The translations under genes were made by a program, and so were the position numbers. DNA of 53,847 nt from Clostridia bacterium (GTDB lineage Bacteria; Bacillota; Clostridia; Oscillospirales; Acutalibacteraceae). A model generated the notes under the pieces. It was not told the DNA's origin. It worked only from the letters and a program-made list of their open reading frames with translations, and did no database searches. The stretch is taken from the NCBI GenBank assembly GCA_017555765.1, contig JAFZFT010000067.1:1-53847 (forward strand), read 5' to 3'. Shown piece by piece: positions 1,438 to 28,120 of this stretch. The number at the start of each line of letters is the position of its first letter. The first letter of the stretch is position 1.

Positions 1438-1489
1438 TAAAAGACAAAAGGTGCATCCTCCTGCCGTTACAGCCTCGGAACGCACCTTT
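1436..1489 (-). terminator. Terminator of the oxidoreductase-ilvE operon
   Basis: Inverted repeat AAAGGTGC / GCACCTTT (1447-1454 and 1482-1489), with extra pairing inside the loop and a U-rich stretch on the minus strand after the stem, immediately downstream of the ilvE stop codon. Confidence 0.75.
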
Positions 1490-1498
1490 GATATTCAA

Positions 1499-2566
1499 TT
1501 ATTTAACTTCAACTCTCCAGCCGTAGGGATCTTCTCTCTTACCCCACTGGATGCCTGTAAGCTCATCGTAAAGCTTCTGTGTAAGCTCACCGATTCCGCC
1601 GTCACCGATTGTCATAACATCGTCCATATAACGAAGCTTACCAACGGGTGAAACAACAGCAGCTGTACCTGTACCCCATACTTCTTCAAGAGTACCGTTC
1701 TTTGCTGCCTCAACAAGCTCGTCAACAGAGATTCTTCTCTCTTCAACCTCGTAGCCCCAAGCCTTACATACATTAAGGATTGAGTTACGGGTGATACCGG
1801 GAAGGATGCTGCCGTTAAGAGCAGGAGTGATAACCTTACCGTTGATCTTGAACATAATGTTCATAGCGCCAACCTCTTCGATGTACTTTCTTTCTACACC
1901 GTCAAGCCAGAGCACCTGTGAATAGCCTGCATCGTGAGCCTTAACCTGAGCAATAAGAGAAGCAGCGTAGTTACCGCCTGTCTTTGCAAAGCCCATACCG
2001 CCCTTAACTGCTCTTACGTAGTCGTCTTCAATCCAGATACCAACAGGAGCAAGACCACTCTCATAGTATGCACCTGAAGGTGAAAGGATAACGATAAAGA
2101 GATATGTCTTTGAAGGAGCAACACCGAGGAATTCGTCAGTTGCAATTACGAAAGGACGGATGTAAAGTGATGTACCGGGGTCGGAAGGAACCCAATCTCT
2201 GTCAATGTCAACAACAGCCTTAACTGCTTCAACAAACATATCCTCGGGAATTTCGGGGATGCAGAGTCTTTCGTTTGAAGCATTTGCTCTCTTTGCATTC
2301 ATATCGGGACGGAAAAGATAAATCTTGTCATCGTCGCCTCTATAAGCCTTGAGACCTTCAAACATTTCCTGACCGTAATGGAACACCATTGCACTGGGAG
2401 CAAGTGAAAGGTTAGCATAGGGCTCGATTCTTGCATCGTGCCAGCCCTTGCCCTCTGTGTAATTCATTACGAACATATGGTCAGTGAAGATATGACCGAA
2501 GCCGAGCTTTTCACCCTTTGCAGGCTTAGCCTTGGGAGCAGTTGTTTTTGTAATCTTGATTTCCAT
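1499..2566 (-). CDS. ilvE: Branched-chain amino acid aminotransferase
   Basis: A 355-residue fold-type IV PLP enzyme of the BCAT (eukaryotic-like/BCAT2) length class. It interconverts the 2-oxo acids of valine, leucine and isoleucine with the amino acids, using glutamate. The PLP lysine sits in the motif FAKTGGNYAASL and the phosphate-binding region in WGTGTAAVVSPV near the C-terminus. The start is supported by GAGGTG 6-7 nt upstream. It is the last of six genes, 11 bp after the gamma subunit of a ferredoxin-dependent 2-oxoacid oxidoreductase. The pairing of OFOR with a BCAT is the main reason to read the oxidoreductase as branched-chain specific and to propose synthesis of Val, Leu and Ile from branched acyl-CoAs. 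Confidence 0.95.
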   Translation of the reverse strand: MEIKITKTTAPKAKPAKGEKLGFGHIFTDHMFVMNYTEGKGWHDARIEPYANLSLAPSAMVFHYGQEMFEGLKAYRGDDDKIYLFRPDMNAKRANASNERLCIPEIPEDMFVEAVKAVVDIDRDWVPSDPGTSLYIRPFVIATDEFLGVAPSKTYLFIVILSPSGAYYESGLAPVGIWIEDDYVRAVKGGMGFAKTGGNYAASLIAQVKAHDAGYSQVLWLDGVERKYIEEVGAMNIMFKINGKVITPALNGSILPGITRNSILNVCKAWGYEVEERRISVDELVEAAKNGTLEEVWGTGTAAVVSPVGKLRYMDDVMTIGDGGIGELTQKLYDELTGIQWGKREDPYGWRVEVK

Positions 2567-2577
2567 AATTACACCTC

Positions 2578-3114
2578 TTATTCAAAATCGTAGCCTGTTT
2601 TGATGGCTTTAATGTTAATATCAATAAGATTTGCCTTTTTGGGAGGAACAACCTTCTGTACGGTTGCTTCGATGCCTTCGAATGAAAGAGCGTCGCAAGC
2701 CTTCATAAGCTTACCCATAAGAATCATATTTGCAAGAGTTGCAAAGCCTTCATCCTTAGCCATTTTTGTAGCGGGCACATAATAGGTTGTAACATCATCT
2801 CTTTCAACCTTCTTACCAATAAGAGTTGAGTCAACGATAATGATACCGCCTGAAACAACATCCTTCTCGTACTTTTCAAGTGAGGGAAGGTTCATAGCAA
2901 CAAGAATGTCGGGATTAGCAACAATGGGTGAACCTACGGGCTCATCACTGATTATAACACTGCAGTTAGCAGTACCACCGCGCATTTCGGGACCGTATGA
3001 GGGAAGCCATGAAACCTGCTTTTCAGCAACAAGGCCCTTGTAAGCAAGAAGCTTACCTGCAAAAAGTACGCCCTGACCGCCGAAGCCTGCAATAAGAATC
3101 TGTGTAGTACTCAT
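2578..3114 (-). CDS. 2-oxoacid:ferredoxin oxidoreductase, gamma subunit
   Basis: 178 residues, matching the OFOR gamma family. The N-terminal glycine-rich motif [15 protein letters not shown] and the segment [15 protein letters not shown] are characteristic. With the alpha, beta and delta subunits next to it, the enzyme binds CoA, TPP and [4Fe-4S] clusters and interconverts a 2-oxo acid plus CoA with an acyl-CoA, CO2 and reduced ferredoxin. Its start overlaps the beta stop by 1 bp, so the two are coupled. The substrate is not fixed by sequence. The neighbouring ilvE argues for branched-chain 2-oxo acids (VOR type); 2-oxoglutarate (KorABCD) remains the main alternative. Confidence 0.9.
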
Positions 3115-3869
3115 TATTCTGCCTCCTTTTCTGCATCTCTGTCCTTATATACACCGAGAGGATAATAAGGAAGCATCTTTTCTTCAACCCATTCGAGAGC
3201 CTTTTCAGGTGTCATACCCCAGTTTGTGGGACATGTTGAAATAACCTCAACAAGTGAGAAGCCCTTCTTGTCGATCTGATTCTGGAAAGCCTTTTTAATA
3301 GCCTTCTTAGCATTTTTTACATTCTTAACACTGTTTACGGCAACTCTTTCGATGTAGCCTGCACCGTCAAGCTGTGAGAGCATTTCGGAAACCTTTACCG
3401 GAAAACCGCAATGACTTGTGTCACGTCCGTATGGCGAGGTCTGTGTAACCTGACCGGGAAGTGAAGTGGGAGCCATCTGACCGCCTGTCATACCGTAGAT
3501 TGCATTGTTTACAAAAATGATAGTGATATTTTCATTTCTTGCAGCAGCGTGTACTGTTTCTGCAGTACCGATTGAAGCAAGGTCACCGTCACCCTGATAT
3601 GTAAATACGATGTGGTTATCCGGATCAGCTCTCTTAAGACCTGTAGCAACTGCAGGAGCACGTCCATGTGCAGCTTCAACCATATCACATGCAAAATAGT
3701 TGTAAGCAAGTACTGAACAGCCAACAGGTGCAACACCGATTGTCTTGCCTTCAATTCCGAGCTCATCAATTACCTCGGCAACGAGACGGTGAATAATACC
3801 GTGTGTACAACCGGGACAATAATGGAAGGGTACGTCACAAAGTGACTTGGGTTTATCAAATACTACCAT
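3114..3869 (-). CDS. 2-oxoacid:ferredoxin oxidoreductase, beta (TPP-binding) subunit
   Basis: 251 residues. Four features mark the TPP-binding subunit: the N-terminal cluster-ligand motif CPGCTHG, a further Cys in APVGCSVL, the TPP/Mg motif starting at GDGDLASIG and continuing to NNAIYGMTGGQ, and a conserved Cys (STCPTNW) near the C-terminus. It forms the active site of the four-subunit OFOR with its neighbours. Its start overlaps the alpha stop by 1 bp. The C-terminal 30 residues are charged and may contact the delta ferredoxin; that is inference. Confidence 0.93.
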   Translation of the reverse strand: MVVFDKPKSLCDVPFHYCPGCTHGIIHRLVAEVIDELGIEGKTIGVAPVGCSVLAYNYFACDMVEAAHGRAPAVATGLKRADPDNHIVFTYQGDGDLASIGTAETVHAAARNENITIIFVNNAIYGMTGGQMAPTSLPGQVTQTSPYGRDTSHCGFPVKVSEMLSQLDGAGYIERVAVNSVKNVKNAKKAIKKAFQNQIDKKGFSLVEVISTCPTNWGMTPEKALEWVEEKMLPYYPLGVYKDRDAEKEAE

Positions 3870-4933
3870 TACTTGTTACCTCCTTCGTTTGCTTTTCTGA
3901 TTGATTCAAGCACCTGCTCGGGTGAAGGAATCATACCGCCCACTCTGTTGCAAAGAGCAACGGGCTTCTGTGACTTTGTGTAAAGCTTAACATCTTCAAT
4001 CATCTGACCCATTGAAAGCTCAACACAGATAAAGCTGTTAACCTTTTCTGCAGCTGCTTCAAATGCCTTCCGGGGGAAGGGCCAGAGTGTGATGGGACGG
4101 ATCATACCAACCTTGATGCCTTCAGCTCTTGCCTTAACGATTGCATTTCTTGCAACACGGGCAGCAATACCGTAAGCAGCAACGCAGATTTCAGCGTCAT
4201 CCATCATATATTCTTCATACATAACCTCGTTTTCTTCGATGGTCTTGTATCTGTCATATCTTGCAAAGTTGAGCTTTTCAAGCTCTTCGGGAATAAGTGA
4301 AAGTGAGTTGATGATATTCTTCTTTCTTTCACCCTTTGTGCCTGTAACTGCCCATGACTTATCGTAATCAGCAACAACAGCTTCTTCAAGGCATACGGGC
4401 TCCATCATCTGACCCATAGTACCGTCAGCGAGGATCATTGATGTCATTCTGTACTTTTCAGCAAGGTCAAAGCCCTTAACTGTGAGATTTGCCATTTCCT
4501 GAACTGATGAAGGAGCAAGAACGATCATCTTGTAGTCACCGTGACCGCAACCTTTTGTTGCCTGGAAATAGTCTGCCTGTGAGGGCTGAATACCACCGAG
4601 ACCGGGGCCGCCTCTCTGAACATTAACAACAAGTGCGGGAAGATCACTACCTGCAAGATAAGAAAGACCTTCTGCCTTAAGTGAAATTCCGGGGCTTGAT
4701 GATGATGTCATAACTCTCTTACCTGTTGATGCAACACCGTAAACCATATTGATCGCTGCAACTTCACTTTCTGCCTGAAGGAAGCAACCACCGATTTTGG
4801 GCATCTTCTTTGCCATATATGCGGCAATTTCAGTCTGAGGAGTGATGGGATAACCGAAGTAATGACGGCAGCCTGCAAGAATCGCAGCCTCAGCAATAGC
4901 CTCATTACCCTTCATAAGAACTTTTTCAGCCAT
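3869..4933 (-). CDS. 2-oxoacid:ferredoxin oxidoreductase, alpha subunit
   Basis: About 354 residues from the chosen start. Domain I carries the PITPQTEIA motif, which contacts the CoA/TPP site in this family; domain II (about 240-350) completes the subunit. The start was set at ATG 4933 (protein MAEKVLMKG), because GAGGT lies 8 nt upstream of it. An ATG at 4939 is too close to that site, and one at 4954 would run into the delta gene. The gene is 10 bp downstream of the delta subunit. Substrate discussion as for gamma. Confidence 0.92.
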   Translation of the reverse strand: MAEKVLMKGNEAIAEAAILAGCRHYFGYPITPQTEIAAYMAKKMPKIGGCFLQAESEVAAINMVYGVASTGKRVMTSSSSPGISLKAEGLSYLAGSDLPALVVNVQRGGPGLGGIQPSQADYFQATKGCGHGDYKMIVLAPSSVQEMANLTVKGFDLAEKYRMTSMILADGTMGQMMEPVCLEEAVVADYDKSWAVTGTKGERKKNIINSLSLIPEELEKLNFARYDRYKTIEENEVMYEEYMMDDAEICVAAYGIAARVARNAIVKARAEGIKVGMIRPITLWPFPRKAFEAAAEKVNSFICVELSMGQMIEDVKLYTKSQKPVALCNRVGGMIPSPEQVLESIRKANEGGNK

Positions 4934-4943
4934 TTTCATTACC

Positions 4944-5150
4944 TCACTTTTCAACCTTGATTATGCAATCGGGACACATTGTTGCACAGAATGCACAACC
5001 GATGCACTTTTCTGCATCTGTCATTTCTGCGGGAGAATGACCCTTTGCATTGATTTTATCCTTTGCGATAACAAGGATTTTTTTCGGACAAGCGATAACG
5101 CAAAGGCCGCAGCCCTTACACATATCTGTATTAAACGTAACCTTTGGCAT
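4944..5150 (-). CDS. 2-oxoacid:ferredoxin oxidoreductase, delta (ferredoxin-like) subunit
   Basis: 68 residues with two complete [4Fe-4S] motifs, CKGCGLCVIACP and CIGCAFCATMCP, typical of the separate delta subunit of four-subunit OFORs. It carries electrons between the TPP site and soluble ferredoxin. Gene order delta-alpha-beta-gamma is that of the kor/vor-type clusters. The start ATG at 5150 has GGAGGT upstream. Confidence 0.93.
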   Translation of the reverse strand: MPKVTFNTDMCKGCGLCVIACPKKILVIAKDKINAKGHSPAEMTDAEKCIGCAFCATMCPDCIIKVEK

Positions 5151-5165
5151 AAAAATACCTCCAAT

Positions 5166-5828
5166 TTAAAAATATTTCTTCTGAAGCTCAAGAGGGAAAA
5201 GCTTTTCCTCTCTGTCGCTCATTTTTTCACATACGTTCTTTTCTGCACTGACAAAGCAGAGAGGAAGACCGCTCATTTCACTGAGTCTTTCAGCTTCGGC
5301 AAAGGTAGAAATAACATCCTCTGCAGTAGTAAGCTCACCGAGGTTTGAGTTATTTACTATCCCCGTAAACTTAAGTCCGCAGACATATTCGATTTCCTTC
5401 ATCACCGTAAAAGCTTCCTCAGCAGATCTTGTCAGAGGTCTGAAAAGATTAAGAACGAAATACATTTCATAATCATTCTCAGCATTAATGGCTTCGGCAA
5501 ACCTGCCAAGAGCCACAGCACCTGCATCGTCACCGCCTATGTCCATAACAGCATAGGTACTTTTATCGTGGACAACACGGTACATAGTCTGAGGAACCGA
5601 CGGAATATCAAGATTTGTGTTAGCGAAGGATGAGCATATAAGATCAATCCCCTGCTCCTTAAGCTCCTGCTCACTGTCTTTCGTTCTGAAGTAAGGATTA
5701 ACGATGTCAAGATCCGCTATCACGGTTGGATATCCGAGTTTTTTGAGGTTCATTGCGTAGTTTACTGCGATGTTTGTTTTACCGCTTCCGTAATGCCCTG
5801 CAAAAAGTGTAATTCGCTTTTCTGACAT
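5166..5828 (-). CDS. P-loop ATPase of the MinD/ParA/CooC-like class, first gene of the OFOR operon
   Basis: 220 residues. The Walker A motif GHYGSGKTN is near residue 10, without the KGG signature of true ParA/MinD. The segment IADLDIVNPYFR resembles switch I of SIMIBI ATPases, and VMDIGGDDAG resembles Walker B/switch II. No membrane segment or metal-binding Cys pair is seen. It starts only about 29 nt after the operon promoter and is followed 15 bp later by the delta subunit, so it is made with the oxidoreductase. A role in cluster or cofactor insertion, or in conformational activation of OFOR as CooC does for CO dehydrogenase, is a guess from class and context. I do not know a characterised homologue. 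Confidence 0.75.
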   Translation of the reverse strand: MSEKRITLFAGHYGSGKTNIAVNYAMNLKKLGYPTVIADLDIVNPYFRTKDSEQELKEQGIDLICSSFANTNLDIPSVPQTMYRVVHDKSTYAVMDIGGDDAGAVALGRFAEAINAENDYEMYFVLNLFRPLTRSAEEAFTVMKEIEYVCGLKFTGIVNNSNLGELTTAEDVISTFAEAERLSEMSGLPLCFVSAEKNVCEKMSDREEKLFPLELQKKYF

Positions 5829-5857
5829 CTTTAAACCTCCTTTATAGCGTACATTTT

Positions 5858-5886
5858 ATTATAAAACACTACTGACTTTTTTTCAA
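5858..5886 (-). promoter_or_regulatory. Promoter of the ATPase-OFOR-ilvE operon
   Basis: Minus strand TTGAAA (5881-5886), 17-bp spacer, TATAAT (5858-5863). The 5' UTR is only about 25-30 nt, too short for a T-box, so this operon is not under direct tRNA control. Confidence 0.85.
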
Positions 5887-5961
5887 GAAAAATCTGTTTT
5901 ATTTTTGCAGAAATTGATAATAATTTATAAGCTTCATTTGTCTAAAATGACAACACAGTTA

Positions 5962-8238
5962 TTAAAGCTTGTTTCTCTGAATCTTACCGCTGATAGTCTT
6001 GGGAAGCTCATCTCTGAAGACAACGATTCTGGGATACTTATAAGGAGCGGTATTCTTCTTAACGTAGTTCTGGATTTCCTTCTTGAGCTCTTCTGTAGGC
6101 TCTGTGCCCTTTGTAAGTACGATGCTTGCCTTAACAACCTGACCTCTCATTTCATCAGGCGCAGCAGATACACCGCATTCAAGAACGTAGGGAAGCTCCA
6201 TAATAACATTTTCGATTTCGAAGGGACCGATACGGTAGCCGGATGACTTGATAACGTCATCGATACGGCTTACGTACCAATAATAACCGTCTTCATCGCA
6301 CCATGCGGTATCACCTGTATGATACATACCGTCGTACCATACCTCAGCTGTCTTTTCTTCATCACGGAAATATCCCTTGAAGAGACCGCAGGGAATCTTC
6401 TTGTCCGTTCTTACAACGATTTCACCTGTTTCACCAACGGGACATTCGTTACCGTCGGGATCAACGATAGCAATATCGTAACCGGGTACGGGCTTACCCA
6501 TTGCGCCGGGCTTGGGTGTTGTACCGATAAGGTTACCGATTGTAAGAGTTGTTTCTGTCTGACCGAAGCCTTCCATAATTACGAGGCCTGTCGCCTTCTG
6601 GAACTGATAGAACACCTCGGGATTAAGTGCCTCACCTGCAGTTGTTGCATATCTGATTGATGAAAGATCGTACTTTGAAAGATCTTCCTTGATAAGCATT
6701 CTGTACATTGTGGGAGGAGCACAGAAAGTTGTGATGTTGTGCTTTTTGAACATCGGAAGAATTTCTGATGCATCAAAGCGGTCAAAGTCATAGGTGAACA
6801 CTGCACCCTCGCACATCCACTGGCCGTAGAATTTACCCCACATAGCCTTACCCCAACCGGTATCGGAAATTGTAAGGTGAAGGTCTGTAGGCTTAACTGA
6901 ATGCCAGTATCTTGCAGTAACAAAGTGACCGAGTGCATACTTGAATGAATGTGATGCAATCTTGGGATAACCTGTTGTGCCTGATGTGAAGAACATAAGC
7001 ATTGCATCATCACCGCATGCGGTATCTTCTTCTCTTTCGAAGATGCTTCTGAAGAGCTTATATTCCTTATCGAAGCTGTGCCAGCCTTCCTTTTCACCGT
7101 TAACGATAACTTTTATCTTAAGGCCGTCATACTTCTTACAAGCTTCGTCAACCTGATTTGCTGTCTGTCCGTCTGAGGTGCAAAGAATAGCCTTAACACC
7201 TGCTGCTTCAAAGCGGTATTCGAAATCGTGAACAACAAGCTGATTTGTTGCGGGGATAATTACTGCGCCGAGCTTATGAAGAGCAAGAGCAGTTATCCAG
7301 AACTGATAGTGACGCTTGAGAACAAGCATAACTCTGTCACCCTTTTCAATGCCAAGGCTCTTGAAATAGTTAGCGGCACGAGCTGATTCCTTCTTGATTT
7401 CGTTGAAGGTAAAGCGTCTTTCTGTCTTATCGTTTGAAATATGAAGCATTGCAAGCTTATCGGGATACTTATCTGCAATAGCATCAACAACGTCAAAGGC
7501 AAAGTTGAACTTATCCTCGTCCTTGAAGGAAATATCCTGAAGAATACCGTTTTCGTCCTCAACGGTATCAATAAATTTTTCAACAACAAGATCGTACTTT
7601 TCCTTTACTGCAACGCTCTTTTCGCTTACCACTGCCTTTTCAGTTGCTTCATCACCTGAAATAACAACTGCAAGGAAGGTGCAGTCTTCACCGTCAACTG
7701 CAATCATACCATGAGGTGTAGAGCTTCTGTAATAAATGCTGTCACCAGCTTCAAGAATTTCAGTATGTGAGCCTACGCGTACCTTGAGCTTACCTGAAAT
7801 AACATAGTCAAATTCCTGACCGCTGTGTGTTGTTGTAGCGATTTCCTTATTCTGAAGCTCTTCCTTGTATTCATACTTTGCGAGATAGGGCTCTGCGAGC
7901 TTATTTCTGAAAAGTAATGCAAGATGATCAATTTCAATACCGTTATCCTCATCCTTTGAGATAACCTTGCCCTGACCCTTTCTTGTAACTGTGTAGGAAG
8001 AAAGGTTGCTGCTTCTGCCCTCGAGAAGGTCAGTTTTTCCGATGCCGAAAACCTTTGCGCACTTATGAATAAAAGAGAAGGGAAGGTCGTCTGCACCTGA
8101 CTCATAAGCATTGTATTCTTCTAATGTAAGATCAACCTTCTGAGCCATTTCGTCGGAAGCATAACCGAAGATTTCGCGCATTTCCTTAATTCGGGAAGCT
8201 ACCTCTTTAAGTTCGCTGTCGATTCTGTTCATTTCCAT
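5962..8238 (-). CDS. HTH-cupin-acyl-CoA synthetase fusion (medium-chain type), Ile T-box controlled
   Basis: 758 residues in three parts. Residues about 10-75 are an XRE-like helix-turn-helix. Residues about 105-195 are a cupin barrel (THSGQEFDYVISG ... RSSTPHGM). Residues about 245-758 are an adenylate-forming acyl-CoA synthetase with P-loop SGTTGYPK starting near 419, LTISDTGWGKAMW, FGQTET, YHTGD and the C-terminal catalytic lysine in SGKIQRN (about 752). The TGWGKAMW segment places it with medium-chain/branched acyl-CoA synthetases, a family in which an archaeal member is reported to prefer 2-methylbutyrate. GGAGG 8 nt upstream fixes the start. The gene sits alone behind a T-box with an Ile specifier. 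I infer activation of 2-methylbutyrate for Ile synthesis. The HTH-cupin part is a usual transcription-factor layout and may sense ligand or regulate the gene itself. Confidence 0.85.
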   Translation of the reverse strand: MEMNRIDSELKEVASRIKEMREIFGYASDEMAQKVDLTLEEYNAYESGADDLPFSFIHKCAKVFGIGKTDLLEGRSSNLSSYTVTRKGQGKVISKDEDNGIEIDHLALLFRNKLAEPYLAKYEYKEELQNKEIATTTHSGQEFDYVISGKLKVRVGSHTEILEAGDSIYYRSSTPHGMIAVDGEDCTFLAVVISGDEATEKAVVSEKSVAVKEKYDLVVEKFIDTVEDENGILQDISFKDEDKFNFAFDVVDAIADKYPDKLAMLHISNDKTERRFTFNEIKKESARAANYFKSLGIEKGDRVMLVLKRHYQFWITALALHKLGAVIIPATNQLVVHDFEYRFEAAGVKAILCTSDGQTANQVDEACKKYDGLKIKVIVNGEKEGWHSFDKEYKLFRSIFEREEDTACGDDAMLMFFTSGTTGYPKIASHSFKYALGHFVTARYWHSVKPTDLHLTISDTGWGKAMWGKFYGQWMCEGAVFTYDFDRFDASEILPMFKKHNITTFCAPPTMYRMLIKEDLSKYDLSSIRYATTAGEALNPEVFYQFQKATGLVIMEGFGQTETTLTIGNLIGTTPKPGAMGKPVPGYDIAIVDPDGNECPVGETGEIVVRTDKKIPCGLFKGYFRDEEKTAEVWYDGMYHTGDTAWCDEDGYYWYVSRIDDVIKSSGYRIGPFEIENVIMELPYVLECGVSAAPDEMRGQVVKASIVLTKGTEPTEELKKEIQNYVKKNTAPYKYPRIVVFRDELPKTISGKIQRNKL

Positions 8239-8273
8239 AACTTTTTACCTCCTTATGTTAATTTAATAATTAC

Positions 8274-8564
8274 AAAAAAATAAACCCGTCCCAAAGAATC
8301 TCTTTGAGACGAGCAATAAACAATGTTTATAATACCCGCGGTACCACTCAAATTGCGATTATAAAACCGCCACCTCAAGCTCCAACAAGCTCTATGCATT
8401 AACGCAGCAATCACGAAGGATATCTACTCACCCTAACAGTTTTCGGACCCTCAGCTCGGAAGTGATAGGAACTGAATTTTTGTTTTATCGGCTTTACACC
8501 ACCGCCGACTCTCTGTGAAAACTCGAACTCTTCCGTCTTCGTCATAGCTTTTATTATTAAATTT
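8274..8564 (-). promoter_or_regulatory. T-box leader, specifier AUC (Ile), upstream of the HTH-cupin-acyl-CoA synthetase
   Basis: On the minus strand the T-box core TGGTACCGCGGG (8335-8346) is followed by a terminator with stem CGTCTCAAAG / CTTTGGGACG (8287-8311) and seven or more Ts. Stem I shows the AGAGAG element (8505-8515 region) and, on its 3' side, CTATCACTTCCGAGC. Aligned with the second T-box in this window, the triplet before ACTTCCGAGC is ATC (8464-8466). Its position just 5' of an A and the closing helix is the usual specifier place. The call of T-box is firm. The Ile reading rests on alignment by eye. Confidence 0.93.
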
Positions 8565-8570
8565 GAAGGT

Positions 8571-8599
8571 ATTCTACCACTTTAAGCACTTAAAGTCAA
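8571..8599 (-). promoter_or_regulatory. Promoter of the Ile T-box unit
   Basis: Minus strand TTGACT (8594-8599), 17-bp spacer, TAGAAT (8571-8576). It lies in the 55 bp between the amidohydrolase stop and the T-box. No terminator was seen before it, so read-through from the Leu unit is possible. Confidence 0.8.
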
Positions 8600-8619
8600 T
8601 AGATTTTTAACAAAAAATT

Positions 8620-9420
8620 TTAAATTTCTATAGAAAAAAGCCTTATTGCGTTTTCAAAAAGGATTTTCTTTTCCTCATCAGAATTAAGCCTCATTGCATA
8701 GAATGCTTCAAGCTCCTTTTTATGACTCCACATAGGAAAATCCGTACCGAAAAGTACTCTGTCAGCACCATAGGCTCTCACAAGCTCTCTTGCTTCGTCT
8801 GCACTGAGCCAATCAAAGCTCGATGAACAGTCAACATAAAAGTTTTTATACTTGCTGAGCTTTTCAGCTGCTTCCTTCCAGCAGGACCAACCACCGAAGT
8901 GAGCACCGACAACTATAAGCTCTGGGTACTTTTCAAGAATCGGCACCATATTATCAGGGTTAGAAAATTCGTATCTGCTGTCCCCCGTGTGAAGATATAC
9001 GGGAAGCTTACCCTGACAAAGAGAATATATCTTATGACACTTCTCATCGTCAATTCTGAATTTCTGAAAATCGGGATGCATTTTGACGCCCTTGAGACCA
9101 AGAGAGATAATCTGCTCAATATCAGCCTCAATATTATCAGAATCAGGATGAAGAGTACCAAGACCCGTCATTAATCCACCACTTGAAGATACGGTATCGG
9201 CAATAAATCCGTTTATAGACTGCACCTGAGCGGGTGTCGTTGCAACGGAAAAAATTATATAGTGCTTTATACCCACAGCGGAGCCCTGCTCAACAAGTGT
9301 AGAAGTCTTGCCGTCATAAAACATCGGAAGGTCATAAAATCCGCCTATGCTTTCAACGGCCTTTTCAGCTATTTTATCAGGATAAACATGACAGTGACAG
9401 TCAACTATAGGGTAATTCAT
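8620..9420 (-). CDS. Amidohydrolase family 2 metal-dependent hydrolase/decarboxylase
   Basis: About 266 residues from ATG 9420 (MNYPIVDCHCHVYP). Metal ligands of the amidohydrolase barrel are visible: HCH at 9-11, Lys/His in GVKMHPD, His in YLHTGD, His in VGAHFGG and Asp in FGTDFPM. The family (COG2159) includes decarboxylases and hydrolases of carboxylic acids. The reading frame is open to a TTG at 9468, but that codon sits in an intergenic hairpin and lacks a good ribosome binding site. It is the third gene of the Leu T-box unit, 62 bp after the TIM-barrel/acyl-CoA synthetase. Its substrate is unknown; a link to branched acid metabolism is inferred from context only. Confidence 0.82.
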   Translation of the reverse strand: MNYPIVDCHCHVYPDKIAEKAVESIGGFYDLPMFYDGKTSTLVEQGSAVGIKHYIIFSVATTPAQVQSINGFIADTVSSSGGLMTGLGTLHPDSDNIEADIEQIISLGLKGVKMHPDFQKFRIDDEKCHKIYSLCQGKLPVYLHTGDSRYEFSNPDNMVPILEKYPELIVVGAHFGGWSCWKEAAEKLSKYKNFYVDCSSSFDWLSADEARELVRAYGADRVLFGTDFPMWSHKKELEAFYAMRLNSDEEKKILFENAIRLFSIEI

Positions 9421-9441
9421 TTTATCACTCTTTTCAAAGCA

Positions 9442-9464
9442 AAGTGCTCCGACTAGCGAAGCAC
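9442..9464 (-). other. Intercistronic hairpin before the amidohydrolase
   Basis: Inverted repeat AGTGCTTCG / CGGAGCACT with a 5-nt loop, between two genes of one operon. The T-rich stretch after it is weak (TTTGCTTTG). It may be a partial terminator or a processing/stability element that sets a different level for the last gene. Confidence 0.5.
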
Positions 9465-9482
9465 TCAACTGTTTAAATTTGA

Positions 9483-12002
9483 TTATGCGGTTTCAACTGC
9501 ATTTGCCTTCTGAAGGCCGTATCTTTCGATAGCCTGCTCACGCATCTTGTACTTAAGAATCTTACCTGCGGCATTCATCGGGAAGGCATCAACAAAGTCA
9601 ACATATCTGGGCACCTTGTGCTTTGCCATATGATCACGGACAAACTGTTTCATTTCTTCAACGGTCATTGTCTCTCCATCCTTAAGGATAATGCAAGCTG
9701 CAATTTCTTCACCGTACTGTTCATCGGGTACACCGATAACCTGAACGTCACTTACCTTGGGGTGTGTGTAGATAAACTCTTCGATTTCCTTGGGGTAAAT
9801 ATTTTCACCGCCACGGATAATCATATCCTTAAGACGTCCTGTAATTTTGTAGTTACCATCCTCGGTCTTGCATGCAAGGTCACCTGTATGAAGCCAGCCG
9901 TCCTTATCAATAGCTGAAGATGTAGCCTTGGGCATCTTGTAGTAGCCCTTCATAATATTGTAGCCTCTTGCTACGAATTCACCGATCTGTCCTACGGGAA
10001 GGTCTTCGCCTGTTTCAGGGTCAACAATCTTACATTCTATTTCGGGAAGCGCACGACCAACTGTGCTTACTCGTACCTCGATTGAGTCGTCGGTTGAGCT
10101 CATTGTACAGCCGGGAGATGCCTCGGTCTGACCGTAAACGATGGTGATTTCCTTCATATTCATCTTATCGACAACGTCTTTCATTGTAGCAATAGGACAA
10201 GGTGAGCCCGCCATAATACCTGTTCTCATATGTGAGAAATCGGTCTTTTCAAAGTCGGGATGCTCAAGCATAGCAATGAACATTGTGGGAACGCCGTGGA
10301 AAGCTGTAATCTTTTCCTGATTGATACAAGCAAGTGAGGGCTTCGGTGTAAAGTAAGGAAGCGGGTAAAGTGTAACACCGTGAGTCATTGAAGCAGTCAT
10401 TGCAAGAACCATGCCGAAGCAATGGAACATAGGAACCTGAATCATCATACGGTCCTCGGTTGAAAGATCCATTCTGTCACCGATGCACTTACCGTTATTT
10501 ACAACGTTGTAGTGAGTGAGCATAACACCCTTAGGGAAGCCTGTTGTACCTGAAGTGTACTGCATATTACATACATCGTTAGGATCAACACTTGCAGCAA
10601 TTCTGTAAACCTCTTCAACAGGTACGTTTTCAGCTCTTTCAATTGCTTCTTCCCATGTAAGACAGCCCTTTTTCTTAAAGCCTACAGTAATAACATTTCT
10701 GAGGAAGGGAAGTCTGCGGCAGTGGAGAGGATCACCGGGCTTTGTGTTTTCAAGCTCGGGACAAAGCTCACTGATAATATTTGAATAGTGTGAATCACGG
10801 TACTCCTCAACAAGAATAAGAGTATGTGTATCTGACTGCTTGAGAAGGTACTCGATTTCATGAATCTTATATGCAGTATTAACAGTTACAAGTACTGCAC
10901 CGATTTTTGTTGCAGCCCAGAATGCGATATACCACTGAGGAATATTTGTAGCCCATACAGCAACGTGAGAGCCGGGTTTGACACCCATAGCAAGGAATGC
11001 ACGGCAGCATTCATCAACATCATCACGGAACTCTGAGTATGTTCTTGTGTAATCAAGAGTTGTATACTTAAAAGCTAACTGATCGGGGAATTCCTCAACC
11101 ATCTTATCAAGTACCTGAGAGAATGTCTTTTCGATAAGAGCTTCCTTCTTCCAGACATACTTACCTGTGCCTCTGTTGTTGAGATAAAGGTGGCTCTTCT
11201 TTCTTGAGGGAGCCTGGAACTTCTGCATATACTGAACAAAGTGTGCAAAGATAACATCAATTTCAGTAAGGTCGGGCATCCAGTCAGGATTCCATTCAAG
11301 TGAAATGAAGCCGTTATAGTTAACTGATGAAAGTGCATTGATAACGATATCAACAGGCACCTCACCCTCACCGATAAGACGGTATTCATTCTCATCGTTT
11401 ACCTCTGCGGCATCCTTGAGGTGTACGTGTCTGATATAAGCACCGAGGTTTGTAATTGTTACCTCTGTATCCTCTTTTTCTTCGCAATAGGTGTGATATA
11501 CGTCCCATAATGCAGCAAGAGAATCACAAGCGAACTCCATAAGGATATCACGAAGCTTAAGGGTGTTGGAGAACATACCTACTGTTTCGATAAGTACAGT
11601 TACCTTCTTTTCAGCAGCGTAGTCAACAACCTGAGAAAGACAAGCTATAACATTATCTCTTGCGTTTTCGCTCTTACCTGAAGCATAAACTCTTACGAAG
11701 GGTACCTTTATACCCGAAGCAAAGTCAATGCACTTTTTAATGTACTGTGCATTTTCATCCATGGCCGCTGAAGAAATATCAGTACTGATATCAACACAAG
11801 GTACGCAAACACCTGAATCATTGAGTTTACGCATTGTTGCGGCTGAATTATATTTGTGGAAGGGGCCGTTTTTATCTGAAAGATCACTTTCAAGCACATT
11901 GTGAAGTTCAATGCCCTTAAAGCCGATTTCTGTTGCGAGATCTGTGAAATCCTGCCATGAATAGTCCTTCCATCCGTTTATTGAAAAAGAAAGCTTTAAC
12001 AT
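9483..12002 (-). CDS. TIM-barrel (sugar isomerase-like)/acyl-CoA synthetase fusion
   Basis: 839 residues. Residues 1-260 are a xylose-isomerase-like/AP-endonuclease-2 TIM barrel that keeps likely metal ligands: E139 (LIETVG), D167 (LWDVYHTY), H192/H194 (RHVHLKD) and E236 (SLEWNPD). Residues about 285-839 are a FadD-like acyl-CoA synthetase with YTSGTTGFPKG (GTT from 485), VYGQTE, LHTGDL, RLKDMIIRGGENIYP and the catalytic lysine in AAGKILKYK (about 814). GAGGAGG 8 nt upstream gives a clear start, 3 bp after the LeuA-like gene. As second gene of a Leu T-box unit it is a candidate isovalerate:CoA ligase. What the barrel does is unknown. No internal start or frame change is seen, so the fusion appears real. 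Confidence 0.85.
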   Translation of the reverse strand: MLKLSFSINGWKDYSWQDFTDLATEIGFKGIELHNVLESDLSDKNGPFHKYNSAATMRKLNDSGVCVPCVDISTDISSAAMDENAQYIKKCIDFASGIKVPFVRVYASGKSENARDNVIACLSQVVDYAAEKKVTVLIETVGMFSNTLKLRDILMEFACDSLAALWDVYHTYCEEKEDTEVTITNLGAYIRHVHLKDAAEVNDENEYRLIGEGEVPVDIVINALSSVNYNGFISLEWNPDWMPDLTEIDVIFAHFVQYMQKFQAPSRKKSHLYLNNRGTGKYVWKKEALIEKTFSQVLDKMVEEFPDQLAFKYTTLDYTRTYSEFRDDVDECCRAFLAMGVKPGSHVAVWATNIPQWYIAFWAATKIGAVLVTVNTAYKIHEIEYLLKQSDTHTLILVEEYRDSHYSNIISELCPELENTKPGDPLHCRRLPFLRNVITVGFKKKGCLTWEEAIERAENVPVEEVYRIAASVDPNDVCNMQYTSGTTGFPKGVMLTHYNVVNNGKCIGDRMDLSTEDRMMIQVPMFHCFGMVLAMTASMTHGVTLYPLPYFTPKPSLACINQEKITAFHGVPTMFIAMLEHPDFEKTDFSHMRTGIMAGSPCPIATMKDVVDKMNMKEITIVYGQTEASPGCTMSSTDDSIEVRVSTVGRALPEIECKIVDPETGEDLPVGQIGEFVARGYNIMKGYYKMPKATSSAIDKDGWLHTGDLACKTEDGNYKITGRLKDMIIRGGENIYPKEIEEFIYTHPKVSDVQVIGVPDEQYGEEIAACIILKDGETMTVEEMKQFVRDHMAKHKVPRYVDFVDAFPMNAAGKILKYKMREQAIERYGLQKANAVETA

Positions 12003-12005
12003 CGA

Positions 12006-13418
12006 TTATGCCTCCTCGTAAACAATTTTGTTGAGAGCATTGAGATATGCTCTGATGCTTGCACCAATGATGTCGGTTGAAATACCCTTACCTGAGTAAA
12101 GCTTACCGTCATTGCGAAGCTTAACAAGCGCTGAGCCCATTGCTTCCTGACCCTCAGTAACTGACTGAATCTGGAAATCGTCAAGTTCATAGTGATGACC
12201 TACTATCTGCTCAATAGCAAGGAATGCGGCATCGATAGGACCGTCACCACCTGCAAGACCGCTGATTTTTTCACCGTTCTTTGTCATTGTTATATTTGCA
12301 GTTGCGGGAATAATATTACCGCTGTTGATAACATATGAATCAAGGAAATATGTTGTGGGTACCTGAAGGGCGGCTGAAGCAATAATAGCATCAAGCTCCT
12401 TTGCACCTACAGCCTTTTTGCGGCTGATTCTCTTGAATTCATCGTAAACCTTTGTGATATCCTCCTGAGAAAGGTCATATCCGAGGTTTTTAACTGCCTT
12501 TGTCACTTCGCTGATATCGTCGTGCTCATTGAGTACGAAATCATCGTTGAGAGCACCGAAAGCAGAATCGAAAGGTGTATTCTTTGCTCTTTTTGCATTT
12601 GCAATCCACTCAATCTGCTTTGAGATTCTGTGGAATTCTGTCATTTTGATACACGACTCAAGACCAAGCTCATCGCTGTGAGCCTTCACTGCCTGAGAAA
12701 CAGGTTCAAGTGAAGCAGCCTCTGTACCTGCTATAGACGTAACCTTGATTTCTCTTACGCCCGCCTTCACTGCTGAAATACTGCAAGCTGCTGCCATTGA
12801 CATCTTGTCGCTGCACTGAATACCTACGCATACATTTTCAAGTGCAGGTACATTTGCGTAAACATCATCAACGAAGGTTGTGATTTCGTCTGCAAGCATT
12901 GTTTCTGCAGTATCACAGAGTGTTACTGTTGTTGCACCTGCTTCAACAGCTGCCTCAATTGCAGTATAAAGGAAGTCTGCTTCGCTTCTGGTAGCATCGT
13001 CAGCAACAAATTCAACATCAGCGCAAAGTGACTTTGCCTTTGAAACAAGCTCCTTGATCATTTCAAGCACAACAGGAGGCTTTTTCTTGCAGATATATTC
13101 CATCTGCACAGTTGATGTGGGAACAACAATCTGAATTCTTGCCTTATGAGCACCCTTAAGTGCTTCGGCAACCCTTTCAACATCCTGCTCCTCAAGGTTT
13201 ACAGGTACTGCAAGAATGCTGTTTCTGATGCAAGATGATATTGATTTAATAAGAAGTACATCTGTCTTCTCTTTTACTATTGCAGGGAGCTCAATTACAG
13301 AAACGTTAACCTTGTCAAGTAGCTTTGCAATTTCAATCTTCTCTCTAAAGGAAAGCACATATTCACTTTTTTTAGCTGCCTGCTTCAATGTAATGTCTGC
13401 GATTGATAATTTTTCCAT
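12006..13418 (-). CDS. 2-isopropylmalate-synthase-like protein lacking catalytic residues
   Basis: About 470 residues from ATG 13418, which has AGGAG 8 nt upstream; the frame stays open to 13451 but without a site. The order follows LeuA: DRE-TIM-like barrel (1-280), linker, and a C-terminal allosteric LeuA dimer domain (about 350-470, with SDYVINSG-like strand and EGQEAMGSA). The LRDGEQ motif of active enzymes is LKQAAKK here, and the metal-binding HTHDD is QCSDK, so the base-binding Arg, the metal Asp and both metal His are gone, although VEFVADDATRS and CDTAET survive. I infer no condensing activity. A leucine-sensing or structural role is possible. It is the first gene after a Leu T-box. 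Confidence 0.85.
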   Translation of the reverse strand: MEKLSIADITLKQAAKKSEYVLSFREKIEIAKLLDKVNVSVIELPAIVKEKTDVLLIKSISSCIRNSILAVPVNLEEQDVERVAEALKGAHKARIQIVVPTSTVQMEYICKKKPPVVLEMIKELVSKAKSLCADVEFVADDATRSEADFLYTAIEAAVEAGATTVTLCDTAETMLADEITTFVDDVYANVPALENVCVGIQCSDKMSMAAACSISAVKAGVREIKVTSIAGTEAASLEPVSQAVKAHSDELGLESCIKMTEFHRISKQIEWIANAKRAKNTPFDSAFGALNDDFVLNEHDDISEVTKAVKNLGYDLSQEDITKVYDEFKRISRKKAVGAKELDAIIASAALQVPTTYFLDSYVINSGNIIPATANITMTKNGEKISGLAGGDGPIDAAFLAIEQIVGHHYELDDFQIQSVTEGQEAMGSALVKLRNDGKLYSGKGISTDIIGASIRAYLNALNKIVYEEA

Positions 13419-13464
13419 TTTAAAAACTCCTTTTAAAATATAGTATATCACTTGGCCCTAACAA

Positions 13465-13745
13465 ATAAAAAAAATCCTTGAAATTACAAAAGTAACTTCA
13501 AGGACGAATAACAATCCGCGGTACCACCTTGTTTACTGCTTTATACAGTCACCTTTCAAGACTCTGACAAGCCTTTAGCCATGATAACGGGGCATCCGTG
13601 ACTACCTACACAACCCTTAGGCCTTCAGCAATCCTGCTCGGAAATGAGACTGAATAATCACCGTGTATCGGTTCGCACCTGACACCGACTCTCTGAAACT
13701 TAACGAATGAAAATTCATAATTTCGTCAACGCATTTGTGATATTG
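13465..13745 (-). promoter_or_regulatory. T-box leader, specifier CUC (Leu)
   Basis: On the minus strand the core GGTGGTACCGCGGA (13515-13528) precedes a strong terminator, stem TCCTTGAAGTTAC / GTAATTTCAAGGA (13475-13504) with eight Ts. The AGAGAG element of stem I is at 13685-13695. The 3' side of stem I reads GTCTCATTTCCGAGC, placing CTC (13646-13648) at the specifier position, aligned with ATC in the Ile T-box. A Leu specifier fits the LeuA-like gene that follows. Confidence 0.95.
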
Positions 13746-13751
13746 GAAAGC

Positions 13752-13780
13752 ATTTTATCACAAAGAATCGGAAATGTCAA
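13752..13780 (-). promoter_or_regulatory. Promoter of the Leu T-box operon
   Basis: Minus strand TTGACA (13775-13780), 17-bp spacer, TAAAAT (13752-13757). Confidence 0.87.
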
Positions 13781-21025: not shown

Positions 21026-22810
21026 TTAATGAAGCAGAGCCTTTTCAAGAGCGTTGAGGTTACGGTACATGAGACTCACATATGTCTCTCCGCTATTAAA
21101 ATCCTCCGCTGAAATAACGTGACAGGAATAAAGGGTTTCCACCTCGGCGCCTGTCTGCTCGCTTATAGACTCGGCTAACATTCCTGTGCTGAGGTCAATC
21201 TTGAAGACAACGGGTACAGACTCTTCCTTAACCTTGTTGCAGAGATTTGCAACAGTCACGGGATTAGCTTCTGCCTGAGCGGAGCAACCCGGGAAAGCCG
21301 CAAAGTATTCAAGGGAATACCTCTTAGCAAAGTACATAAGCGGGAATCTGTCACCAATAACAATATAATCACTGACTCTTACGTCCATAAGCTCTGATAA
21401 ATCTTCGTCGAGAGTACGGAGTTTTTCAGCAAAGCTACTGTAATTAGAACGGTAAAGCTCACTGCTTTCACTGTCCACTTCACAGATAGCAACACATATA
21501 GCTTCTGCTATTGTAATTGCATTTATCGGAGAAGTCCACACGTGCTCATCGTACTCTTCATGCTCATCTTCGCTATGCTCATGCGAATGAACTTCGTGCT
21601 CTTCACTTTCATAAGCAGTTACGCAATCCATCATTTTTACTGTTCTTATGTCTTTGTCGATGCCGTCAAGTACACTGTAAACCCAAGTTTCGGATTCACC
21701 ACCGCCGAAGATAAACACATCGCACTGCTCGATTTTCATAATATCCCCGGGTGTAGGCTCATAGGTATGACTCTCTTCACCGGGAGAGAGCAGCATAACA
21801 ACCTCAGCATTCTCCCCTGCAATCTGTCTTGCAAAGTCATAAGGAGCAAAGCTTGTTGCAACTATAGTAAGCTTATCCTTGCGGTATATATTGAAGCTGC
21901 CGAATGTCATTGCGAAAATAAATATTACTGCCGAAACAATACACACTGCCGCTTTAAGAAGCTTTTTCACGGAATAAAAACGGCTTTTATCCGAAATATT
22001 TGACACCGCTCCGACCAAAGCAAAAACCGCAAGCATAAATATGTTTACAACTACAACACTTGCACCCGTCGGCGTCTCGTGACGTATTGAAAGGAAAAGT
22101 CCGGACAGGAAACAGAACACTGAAACTGCAGTTGAACATATTACAACGCCCTTATAGCTCTTGCAAACACGCATAGAAGTAACCGTTGGGAAAATTATGA
22201 GTGACGAAATAAGCAATGCCCCCATCATTCTCATACCTATTACGATAGTAACCGCAGTAAGTGCGGATATTATCATATTGTAGACCGATACCTTTGTACC
22301 TGTTGCCTTTGCAAAGCTTTCATCAAAAGTTACCGCGAAAATCTCATTGTAGAAAATCACGAAAAGAGCAATTACAACAACTGAAATAACGGAGCTTATA
22401 ACAACATCGCCCTCGCTCATTGTGAGGATACTGCCAAACATATAGTTATATATATCGACATTCATACCCGTAGTAACAGATGTTGCCATGATACCTATTG
22501 CCAATGCTCCCGTTGATATGAGCGCAATTGCCGCATCACCTTTTATTTTACCTCTCTCGCTCATCTTAAGAAGCATAAACGCTGCAATAACTACAATCGG
22601 AAGAGAGAAATACAACGGTGCAATATTAGCCGCAGAAGCAATCGCCATAGCACCAAAACCCACGTGGGAAAGTCCGTCACCTATCATTGAAAATCGCTTA
22701 AGTACAAGACTTACACCTAAAAGGGCGGCGCAAAGCGAAATAAGTGTACCGACAATAAGAGCGCGTACGAGAAACTGCTGGGAGAAAATCAAGGCTAAAA
22801 CTTCATTCAT
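21026..22810 (-). CDS. Zinc/manganese ABC permease fused to its substrate-binding protein
   Basis: 594 residues. Residues 1-270 are an ABC-3 type metal permease (ZnuB/MntB) with about eight membrane segments. A further membrane helix at about 284-306 is followed by a ZnuA-like metal-binding protein (312-594), with a metal His in GEESHTYEPTPGD (348), a His/acid-rich loop at 405-423 and the AFPGCSAQAEANP segment. The binding protein, normally a free lipoprotein, is thus tethered to the permease. The start overlaps znuC by 4 bp. With zur and znuC upstream, zinc is the likely substrate. The His-rich loop is typical of zinc-binding members. Confidence 0.9.
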   Translation of the reverse strand: MNEVLALIFSQQFLVRALIVGTLISLCAALLGVSLVLKRFSMIGDGLSHVGFGAMAIASAANIAPLYFSLPIVVIAAFMLLKMSERGKIKGDAAIALISTGALAIGIMATSVTTGMNVDIYNYMFGSILTMSEGDVVISSVISVVVIALFVIFYNEIFAVTFDESFAKATGTKVSVYNMIISALTAVTIVIGMRMMGALLISSLIIFPTVTSMRVCKSYKGVVICSTAVSVFCFLSGLFLSIRHETPTGASVVVVNIFMLAVFALVGAVSNISDKSRFYSVKKLLKAAVCIVSAVIFIFAMTFGSFNIYRKDKLTIVATSFAPYDFARQIAGENAEVVMLLSPGEESHTYEPTPGDIMKIEQCDVFIFGGGESETWVYSVLDGIDKDIRTVKMMDCVTAYESEEHEVHSHEHSEDEHEEYDEHVWTSPINAITIAEAICVAICEVDSESSELYRSNYSSFAEKLRTLDEDLSELMDVRVSDYIVIGDRFPLMYFAKRYSLEYFAAFPGCSAQAEANPVTVANLCNKVKEESVPVVFKIDLSTGMLAESISEQTGAEVETLYSCHVISAEDFNSGETYVSLMYRNLNALEKALLH

Positions 22811-25399: not shown

Positions 25400-25434
25400 C
25401 AAAGGCAGTACATTTGATGTACTGCCTTGTTTTT
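25400..25434 (+). terminator. Terminator of prs, possibly bidirectional with hydF
   Basis: Stem AAGGCAGTACA / TGTACTGCCTT (25402-25428) followed by TGTTTTTATT. On the minus strand the tail is poorer, so termination of hydF is less certain. Confidence 0.88.
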
Positions 25435-26635
25435 ATTCAATTATTTTAAGCACATCCGGAAAGAGCTCAAGGCTTCGTCTGAGAATGCCATTCATCTGTG
25501 CAATAGCAACACCGTAGTTTACAATGGGTACATTTTGTGAAATGCACCTCTCTGTGCGTGCTTTCATTTCCTTCTCACCAAGCATACAGCCTCCGCAGTG
25601 AACAACAAGCCGATACTGAGATAAGTCATCCGGGAAGTCTCCACTGCTTGTGAAGGAAAATTCAGGCTTTGAACCACTGAAGGATTCAATCCACGCCGGC
25701 ATTTTAACAGTGCCTATATCGTTGCACTGTCTGTGATGAGTACAACCCTCGCTTATAAGTACTTTATCACCGTCACGAAGCTTTGAAAGTACGGAAGCTC
25801 CGTTTATAAGCTCGGAAAGCTCCCCTTTATATCTTGCCATAAGAATTGAAAATGATGTGAGCGGAATATCATCAGGTACAAGCTTTGAAACCTTACCGAA
25901 AGCCTGAGAGTCGGTTATAACAAGACAAGGCTTTTCATTTAAGCAAGTAAGCGTTTCTGAAAGCTCAGTATCACGGCATGTAATTGCAACCGCTCCGCTA
26001 TCAAGAATATCACGGATTGTCATCTGCTGAGGCAGAATAAGCCTACCCTTTGGTGCCGCTTTGTCAATAGGAACAACAAGTACTATCTTATCCCCTGCTC
26101 CGATCAAGTCAGAGACGATGGGTTTGTTTTTTTCTGTACTCTTTGCAAGTTTGGCAATGAGTTCCTTAAGCGCATATATATTTTCGCCCGTAAGCGCACT
26201 GACGAAAATCTCGTTATCGCTGAGTGATTTTTCAGCTACGTTTATATCTGACTTGTTCCTCGCAATGATGAAAGGTAGTTTTTTCTCTTCAAAAAAGCTG
26301 ACAAGCTCCTTTTCTGTACTGTTAAGCTTTTTGTTGTTTTCTGTGACAAGTACGGCAATATCAACCTTAGATAAAACATCTTTTGTCTTTTTAACCCGAA
26401 GCTCACCGAGACCACCTTCATCGTCAAAGCCCGGTGTATCAATGATTACCACGGGTCCGATAGGAAGAAGCTCCATTGCCTTTTTTACTGGGTCGGTTGT
26501 AGTGCCCTTAACATCGGATACAACAGACAGATTCTGTCCTGTAACCGCATTGACAAGACTCGACTTACCTGCATTCCTAAGTCCGAAGAAGCCGATATTA
26601 ACCCTTTCCGAGGATGGTGTGGAATTAAGACTCAT
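25433..26635 (-). CDS. hydF: [FeFe]-hydrogenase maturation GTPase
   Basis: 400 residues. The GTPase domain has GLRNAGKSSL and DTPGFDD; a dimerisation domain follows. The C-terminal cluster domain carries the ligands CTHH and HCGGCMLG. HydF is the scaffold on which the 2Fe subcluster is completed before transfer to the hydrogenase. It is the last gene of the maturation operon, 15 bp after hydG. Confidence 0.97.
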   Translation of the reverse strand: MSLNSTPSSERVNIGFFGLRNAGKSSLVNAVTGQNLSVVSDVKGTTTDPVKKAMELLPIGPVVIIDTPGFDDEGGLGELRVKKTKDVLSKVDIAVLVTENNKKLNSTEKELVSFFEEKKLPFIIARNKSDINVAEKSLSDNEIFVSALTGENIYALKELIAKLAKSTEKNKPIVSDLIGAGDKIVLVVPIDKAAPKGRLILPQQMTIRDILDSGAVAITCRDTELSETLTCLNEKPCLVITDSQAFGKVSKLVPDDIPLTSFSILMARYKGELSELINGASVLSKLRDGDKVLISEGCTHHRQCNDIGTVKMPAWIESFSGSKPEFSFTSSGDFPDDLSQYRLVVHCGGCMLGEKEMKARTERCISQNVPIVNYGVAIAQMNGILRRSLELFPDVLKIIE

Positions 26636-26650
26636 AGTAGCCCCCTTTCA

Positions 26651-28099: not shown

Positions 28100-28120
28100 A
28101 ATTTTATTCCTTTCTGTTTC

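Follow-up and report, generated by a model that had tools for sequence, protein, structure and literature searches.

The window analysed here, a whole stretch of 53,847 nucleotides (positions 1 to 53,847 of contig JAFZFT010000067.1, assembly GCA_017555765.1), comes from a Clostridia bacterium of the family Acutalibacteraceae, probably one living in the gut. Between positions 1446 and 13780, its minus strand carries two transcription units that are each led by a T-box, and a third stretch that may be co-read with the second. The first unit, or Leu operon, contains a promoter-like site, a T-box reading leucine, psLeuA (a 2-isopropylmalate synthase homologue whose catalytic motifs are gone and whose leucine-binding-type domain is highly conserved), the acyl-CoA synthetase ACS2 and an amidohydrolase. 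The second, or Ile unit, contains a promoter-like site, a T-box reading isoleucine and the acyl-CoA synthetase ACS1, followed by an ATPase, the delta, alpha, beta and gamma subunits of a ferredoxin-dependent 2-oxoacid oxidoreductase (OFOR), and ilvE. An earlier note on this DNA had described the OFOR and ilvE in one operon beside two synthetases, each behind a T-box. All these elements are present on the minus strand and the specifiers AUC and CUC agree with it, but the note missed psLeuA, which stands between the Leu T-box and ACS2, as well as the sensor-like domains fused to the synthetases. The features are as follows.

13752..13780, minus strand: promoter-like site of the Leu operon, TTGACA-17-TAAAAT (11/12 consensus bases)
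13497..13738, minus strand: Leu T-box leader (RF00230 101.2 bits; R1 91.4 bits), specifier CTC at 13648-13646, terminator hairpin 13505-13474
12006..13451, minus strand, likely start ATG 13418: psLeuA, LeuA-like without catalytic motifs, with LeuA_dimer (PF00682, PF08502, alignments, fold)
9483..12002, minus strand: ACS2, AP_endonuc_2 barrel plus AMP-binding acyl-CoA synthetase, putative isovalerate-CoA ligase (PF01261, PF00501, PF13193)
8620..9468, minus strand: Amidohydro_2 protein that closes the Leu operon (PF04909)
8571..8599, minus strand: promoter-like site of the Ile unit, TTGACT-17-TAGAAT (10/12 consensus bases)
8302..8554, minus strand: Ile T-box leader (RF00230 86.1 bits; R1 84.6 bits), specifier ATC at 8466-8464, terminator hairpin 8314-8284
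5962..8238, minus strand: ACS1, XRE-cupin-acyl-CoA synthetase, putative 2-methylbutyrate-CoA ligase (HTH_19, Cupin_2, AMP-binding)
5886-5858, minus strand: promoter-like site before the ATPase (11/12 consensus bases)
5166..5828, minus strand: CbiA/ParA-type ATPase that opens the OFOR operon (PF01656, 25.7 bits vs cut-off 25.4)
4944..5150, minus strand: OFOR delta, a 68-aa ferredoxin-like protein with two CxxCxxCxxxCP motifs read by eye
3869..4954, minus strand: OFOR alpha, VorB type (NF005507)
3114..3869, minus strand: OFOR beta, TPP type (PF02775)
2578..3114, minus strand: OFOR gamma (PF01558)
1499..2566, minus strand: ilvE, branched-chain aminotransferase (TIGR01123)
1465-1443, minus strand: terminator-like site after ilvE (hairpin scan)

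The Leu leader exceeds the RF00230 gathering score of 93 bits, while the Ile leader misses it (full-length match, E 2e-19 in a 501-base search; also in a whole-genome search). Both leaders carry a covarying stem I, a specifier, the conserved GGUACCGCG core and a terminator, and for this reason the Ile leader is still called a T-box although it misses the curated threshold. In Rfam's own alignments the specifier is CUC in the Leu leader and AUC in the Ile leader, and CUC is also found in the four psLeuA leaders shown from relatives. Of the terminator-like hairpins in the region, those of the two leaders are the strongest (z of the folds -3.15 for Leu and -4.61 for Ile).

Specifiers in the fetched loci were read with R1, our own stem I covariance model built from 33 leaders, which was run on 69 and 80 fetched sources. 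The 71 and 88 matches gave 148 distinct leaders once identical ones were removed. All 75 distinct leaders before psLeuA show Leu codons (CTC 63, CTG 11, CTA 1), all 59 before XRE-cupin-synthetases show Ile or Val codons (ATC 44, GTA 9, GTC 6), and the remaining 14 have mixed codons. Scores of the leaders counted for psLeuA and the XRE-cupin-synthetases range from 49 to 98 bits, and one leader in locus L100 (GGA, 37 bits, 544 bases from psLeuA) was counted as "other" under a 450-base limit. At the level of sequence, these codons support the proposal of the earlier note that starvation for Ile or Leu induces acid activation.

The training leaders of R1 came from the same gene types as those tested, hence the model was also checked on other T-boxes of the window's genome. 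It gave the expected codons for valS (GTA), thrS (ACC) and trpB (TGG), the last being a T-box that precedes trpB at L206:153-1715. For hisS it read GAC, an Asp codon; the pheS, alaS and phenylacetate ligase leaders (22, 35 and 51 bits) were read correctly only after a one-base shift, and the aspS leader was missed. In the first of two stem I alignments (70 distinct rows), which was fitted to R1 itself and so favours pairing, 98.8% of cells are paired with 197 double changes, compared with 79.7% and 45 in shuffles, and at most 44% are paired when partners are slid. A lysine riboswitch was also seen in a relative's locus (L047:1756-1924).

psLeuA misses the NCBIfam LeuA equivalog cut-off (best model NF002086, 308.6 vs 532 bits), and its LeuA_dimer allosteric domain is present (PF08502, 105.5 vs 24.9 bits). 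RDG and HxH, which we take to be the catalytic and metal motifs of LeuA, are lost or almost lost in the alignments, together with GERAGN and the NAFAHESGIHQHG segment. None of the 27 aligned psLeuA has the D (D23) or G of RDG, the first His of HxH (H211) or the NAFAHESGIHQHG segment; R22 is kept in 3 and H213 in 1. Conservation is inverted as well, at 0.47 for the barrel and 0.72 for LeuA_dimer in psLeuA, compared with 0.58 and 0.45 in seven true LeuA. The gene order psLeuA-barrel-synthetase holds in 84 of 84 testable loci, and in 35 of the 84 an amidohydrolase lies no more than 4.5 kb from psLeuA. Judged from these patterns, psLeuA probably no longer makes isopropylmalate and is predicted to sense leucine and to curb ACS2 when this amino acid is abundant. 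A new catalytic activity in place of sensing is unlikely, given that the four motifs are gone or nearly gone and conservation is concentrated in the regulatory domain.

Both AMP-forming synthetases bear extra N-terminal domains, XRE-cupin in ACS1 and the AP_endonuc_2 barrel in ACS2. The best PDB chain for the synthetase domain of ACS1 is 3etc (622 bits; the next reaches 367). This is the structure of MacsMa, an enzyme that prefers 2-methylbutyrate as acyl substrate (PMC10455477). The best NCBIfam model of ACS1 is MbcS (450 bits), an enzyme described as activating 2-methylbutyrate and isobutyrate, but hardly isovalerate, and as serving lipid synthesis (PMC10026030). This substrate range fits ACS1 as an enzyme for Ile or Val and the need for a separate isovalerate enzyme. 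We suggest 2-methylbutyrate as the substrate of ACS1 and, from the Leu T-box and the gene loss described below, isovalerate as that of ACS2.

The same resemblance allows another explanation, in which the acyl-CoA would serve as primer for branched-chain membrane lipids, the role of MbcS in Staphylococcus aureus (PMC10026030). For lipids, however, the Leu, Ile and Val specifiers, the linkage to OFOR alpha and ilvE, and the leucine domain of psLeuA would all be superfluous, and we consider this explanation improbable, although the acyl-CoA may have lipid synthesis as a side role.

In a tree of 38 ACS1 domains, the labels Ile, Val and no leader need 6 changes, compared with 15.0 when shuffled, and a value as low was reached in 0 of 200 shuffles. 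One clade of 8 Val rows and 1 unlabelled row has a support of 99/100. The labels are not single clades (5 changes for Ile, 4 for Val), and where the tree is weakly resolved, 5 Val and 2 Ile rows are intermingled. As for the barrel fused to ACS2, a general role as active enzyme was considered and rejected: the usual metal ligands, at positions that we assume from related isomerases, are kept in only 63, 62, 72 and 57 of 86 members. In the structural comparison of the whole fusion, the matches were filled by the synthetase domain and the barrel was barely probed.

OFOR alpha exceeds the cut-off of the VorB model of 3-methyl-2-oxobutanoate:ferredoxin oxidoreductase (NF005507, 539 vs 399 bits), and ilvE that of the branched-chain aminotransferase equivalog (TIGR01123, 420 vs 250 bits). 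OFOR beta and gamma stay below the cut-offs of all 13 and all 22 NCBIfam models listed for them, respectively. Of 11 testable ACS1 loci, 9 also contain OFOR alpha and all 11 contain ilvE. The earlier note had placed the whole pathway under T-box control, which stands for both synthetase units; the OFOR operon has no T-box immediately ahead of it. Read-through from the Ile T-box may occur, as the hairpin scan of the region gave no same-strand terminator-like site between ACS1 and the ATPase, but the ATPase has its own promoter-like site. The region contains 33 promoter-like sites (24.5 expected) and 13 terminator-like sites (10.5 expected), so any single one of them is weak evidence. Elsewhere in the window, at 25433-29158, HydF and two radical-SAM proteins, of which one carries a BATS domain, resemble a [FeFe] hydrogenase maturation cluster, which fits a ferredoxin-based metabolism.

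The window's genome (2.42 Mb, 171 contigs, 94.6% complete, 4.7% contamination) was then searched for the classical genes. A true leuA was not found, the sole LeuA homologue at E 1e-10 being psLeuA; the only other HMGL-like match, in a 477-aa frame (profile positions 140-258), is presumably of oxaloacetate-decarboxylase type by its size and profile range. leuC was not found (the single aconitase-family match sits in a 758-aa frame), nor was leuB (best 30 bits vs cut-off 353; leuD was not searched for) or ilvA (best 88 bits vs cut-off 379). Intact copies of ilvB, ilvN and ilvC were found, as was ilvD, which a contig end cuts. The loss of leuBCD, ilvC and ilvD predicted earlier appears to hold for leuB and leuC and fails for ilvC and ilvD. 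Leu and Ile are seemingly not made by the usual route in this genome, and exactly a Leu and an Ile unit are found in it, matching these two amino acids. Since ilvBNCD are kept, Val is probably made de novo. The idea that Val, too, comes from branched acids is not supported here, with a single ACS1 and no Val unit found in the genome.

leuA, leuC and ilvA were likewise not found in six further genomes of the genus that are 91-98% complete (G002, G005, G016, G019, G032, G033). In the genus set of 34 genomes, the window's own included, a true LeuA was defined as a PF00682 match at E below 1e-60. psLeuA is found in 24 genomes and true LeuA in 8, with both in 2 and neither in 4 (Fisher p 0.0034), and the exclusion persists in the 25 genomes at least 85% complete (Fisher p 0.0036). 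leuC gives the same table as true LeuA, truncated aconitase-family matches in G013 and G021 not being counted. ilvA occurs in 2 of the 24 psLeuA genomes and 4 of the 10 others (p 0.048), and psLeuA shows no association with ilvC (p 0.13).

When 84,980 genomes were scanned with the psLeuA alignment, at least 594 stretches matched, of which at least 579 were confirmed, and 80 loci were kept. Their record labels are Clostridia, Oscillospiraceae, Lachnospiraceae and others, including Salinivirgaceae, Synergistes, Eggerthellaceae and Abditibacteriota, and among the matches listed many record titles name ruminant gut. In an even draw of the phylum, at E 1e-110, psLeuA matches 3 of 199 genomes, the own genome included and the third (E 1e-115) possibly a true LeuA. 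Among 50 psLeuA genomes reached from the 80 fetched, ilvC is found in 19 and true LeuA in 9, all 9 with ilvC; matches near E 1e-52 in G099, G106 and G107, of unsettled type, were left out of the true LeuA count.

In two relatives that keep ilvA and leuA, the classical genes themselves stand behind such leaders. G003 has a Leu T-box (CTC) before ilvA-leuA-leuC, and G031 has tandem leaders reading Leu and Ile before the same genes (Rfam 43.6 and 77.6 bits, below the gathering score). Salvage genes behind leaders like those of biosynthetic operons argue for synthesis. Together with the leuA, leuB, leuC and ilvA genes not found in the window's genome, this agrees with the direction preferred in the earlier note, and we regard the biosynthetic direction as well supported. 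In a fermentation reading, the OFOR would form acyl-CoA by oxidising branched 2-oxo acids, with the synthetases running backwards or serving re-uptake. It draws on the reversibility of OFORs and on gut anaerobes that ferment Leu, Ile and Val, but it is very improbable given this apparent gene loss, the similar Ile and Leu T-boxes before ilvA in a relative, the induction of T-box genes by lack of the amino acid, and the poor ATP yield of AMP-forming synthetases in reverse.

A Val unit was seen in relatives only. It was considered as a strict replacement of ilvC, which was not borne out: IlvC is lacking in 14 of 16 genomes with a Val leader and in 19 of 34 in which only an Ile unit was seen (Fisher p 0.053), in groups that were compiled by hand, with the Val gene of L139 beyond the fetched stretch; units outside the fetched stretches would be missed. 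ilvC was not detected and no Val leader was seen in G001, G004, G009, G011, G012, G018, G019, G022, G025 and G028. In five of these the second XRE-cupin-type synthetase is 42-43% identical to ACS1 (G001:C34, G009:C77, G012:C152, G019:C77, G022:C127). In the window's genome no second ACS1-type synthetase was found at E 1e-120. Upstream of the second synthetase, neither R1 nor Rfam gave a T-box in any of the ten genomes, the stretch searched in G025 being 416 bases only.

The logic of a T-box followed by an acid ligase is repeated for phenylalanine in the window's genome. At L063:12074-14176 (contig C3), a T-box (103 bits) is followed by a PaaK-like phenylacetate-CoA ligase (529 bits vs cut-off 646) and an ACT-pair protein (89 bits). 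The specifier is UUC in the Rfam alignment (GAA-UUC-A-UUCUG, with 5' CAGAA able to pair), and R1 read TCA, one base off. Such a PaaK gene is found in 6 of 110 loci, with the ACT protein next in all 6, and a T-box core lies just upstream in 3 of them (L063, L055, L059), all showing GAA-UUC. In L055 and L059, where R1 read TCC, again one base off, the PaaK-ACT pair adjoins the psLeuA unit. That Phe is made from phenylacetate in the rumen is reported in PMC7356843. By analogy, an amino-acid-binding-type (ACT) protein beside the phenylacetate ligase supports psLeuA as a putative sensor. A sensor kinase and a response regulator closest to VanS/VanR models, below their cut-offs, were also seen at L063:16022-17888.

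From the above, we consider it quite likely, as read from the sequence, that the window's genome carries two starvation-induced salvage units which replace the lost Leu and Ile pathways, with Val made de novo and psLeuA as leucine sensor. In this mechanism, uncharged tRNA-Leu or tRNA-Ile would let transcription continue through the T-box, and ACS2 of the Leu operon would activate isovalerate and ACS1 of the Ile unit 2-methylbutyrate, branched acids that would be leaked by neighbouring organisms. By family, the VOR-type ferredoxin oxidoreductase would reductively carboxylate the acyl-CoA to a branched 2-oxo acid and IlvE would aminate it, while Val would come from the kept ilvBNCD operon. psLeuA, with its leucine-binding domain, would sense leucine and restrain ACS2 at plenty. 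More tentatively, with the odds slightly against it, a two-tier control might apply, in which each T-box-switched ligase is paired with a domain sensing the matching amino acid: psLeuA would be the leucine receptor for the isovalerate ligase, XRE-cupin would serve the Ile and Val ligases, and the ACT-pair protein would serve the phenylacetate ligase.

Several points weigh against two salvage units that replace lost pathways. Some psLeuA genomes also carry a true LeuA, 2 of 24 in the genus and 9 of 50 in the wider scan. In the genus, ilvA and the Ile unit do not significantly exclude each other, as ilvA occurs in 3 of 28 genomes that have the unit and in 3 of 6 that lack it (p 0.053). The ilvA model covers one enzyme type, and only 5 of 14 control genomes reach its cut-off, so that a divergent ilvA could escape it. 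The lost genes form one cluster in two relatives, and a single assembly gap could remove several of them. The Fisher tests ignore shared descent. As for the substrates, ACS1 misses the MbcS cut-off of 850 bits, and no close solved relative with a branched-acid substrate was found for ACS2 among the 60 matches listed.

The conversion of isobutyrate, isovalerate and 2-methylbutyrate to amino acids by rumen bacteria has been known for decades, and cattle receive isoacids in their feed. To our knowledge, the genes and the control of isoacid use are poorly known. The chemistry proposed here is old rumen biochemistry, and the regulated units and psLeuA are what appears new. Among titles and abstracts, mostly of non-subscription literature, we found no description of T-box control of acid activation or of a LeuA without catalytic motifs. 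The main text of a T-box survey (PMC2494555) does not mention acyl-CoA, AMP-binding, CoA ligase, ketoacid or ferredoxin, and the terms looked for in PMC3766115 do not occur there either.

The codon of each T-box names an amino acid and thereby predicts a directly assayable substrate for each synthetase, and counts of the units in metagenomes can reveal cross-feeding partners. If psLeuA is a true leucine sensor, it would clearly exemplify an enzyme that has come to regulate the very bypass by which it was displaced; if the two-tier control is true, a biosynthetic enzyme would have been converted to a pure allosteric regulator of the replacing pathway. Apart from these units, an ABC-3 permease and a ZnuA-type binding protein are fused in one 594-aa ORF at 21026-22810 of the window.

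Four known systems can be compared with this locus. In rumen isoacid carboxylation, isovalerate gives Leu, 2-methylbutyrate gives Ile and isobutyrate gives Val (Allison and co-workers, cited in PMC7356843). The pairs of acid and amino acid are the same, by carboxylation and amination; that work is labelling biochemistry, whereas candidate genes, amino-acid-specific T-boxes and a LeuA-derived protein are presented here. LeuA shares the barrel fold and the LeuA_dimer domain with psLeuA, which differs in the motif residues lost from all 27 aligned members and in those kept by only a few (R in 3/27, second His in 1/27). MacsMa and MbcS resemble the synthetase domain of ACS1, which in turn has an XRE-cupin N-terminus, T-box control and linkage to OFOR and ilvE, and lies below the MbcS cut-off. 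T-box-controlled leuA/ilv operons, such as those with a T-box before leuA in Geobacter and Pelobacter (PMC2494555), are alike in leader type and codons, whereas in the Leu operon described here the LeuA homologue is without catalytic motifs and an acid-activating synthetase has its place in the operon.

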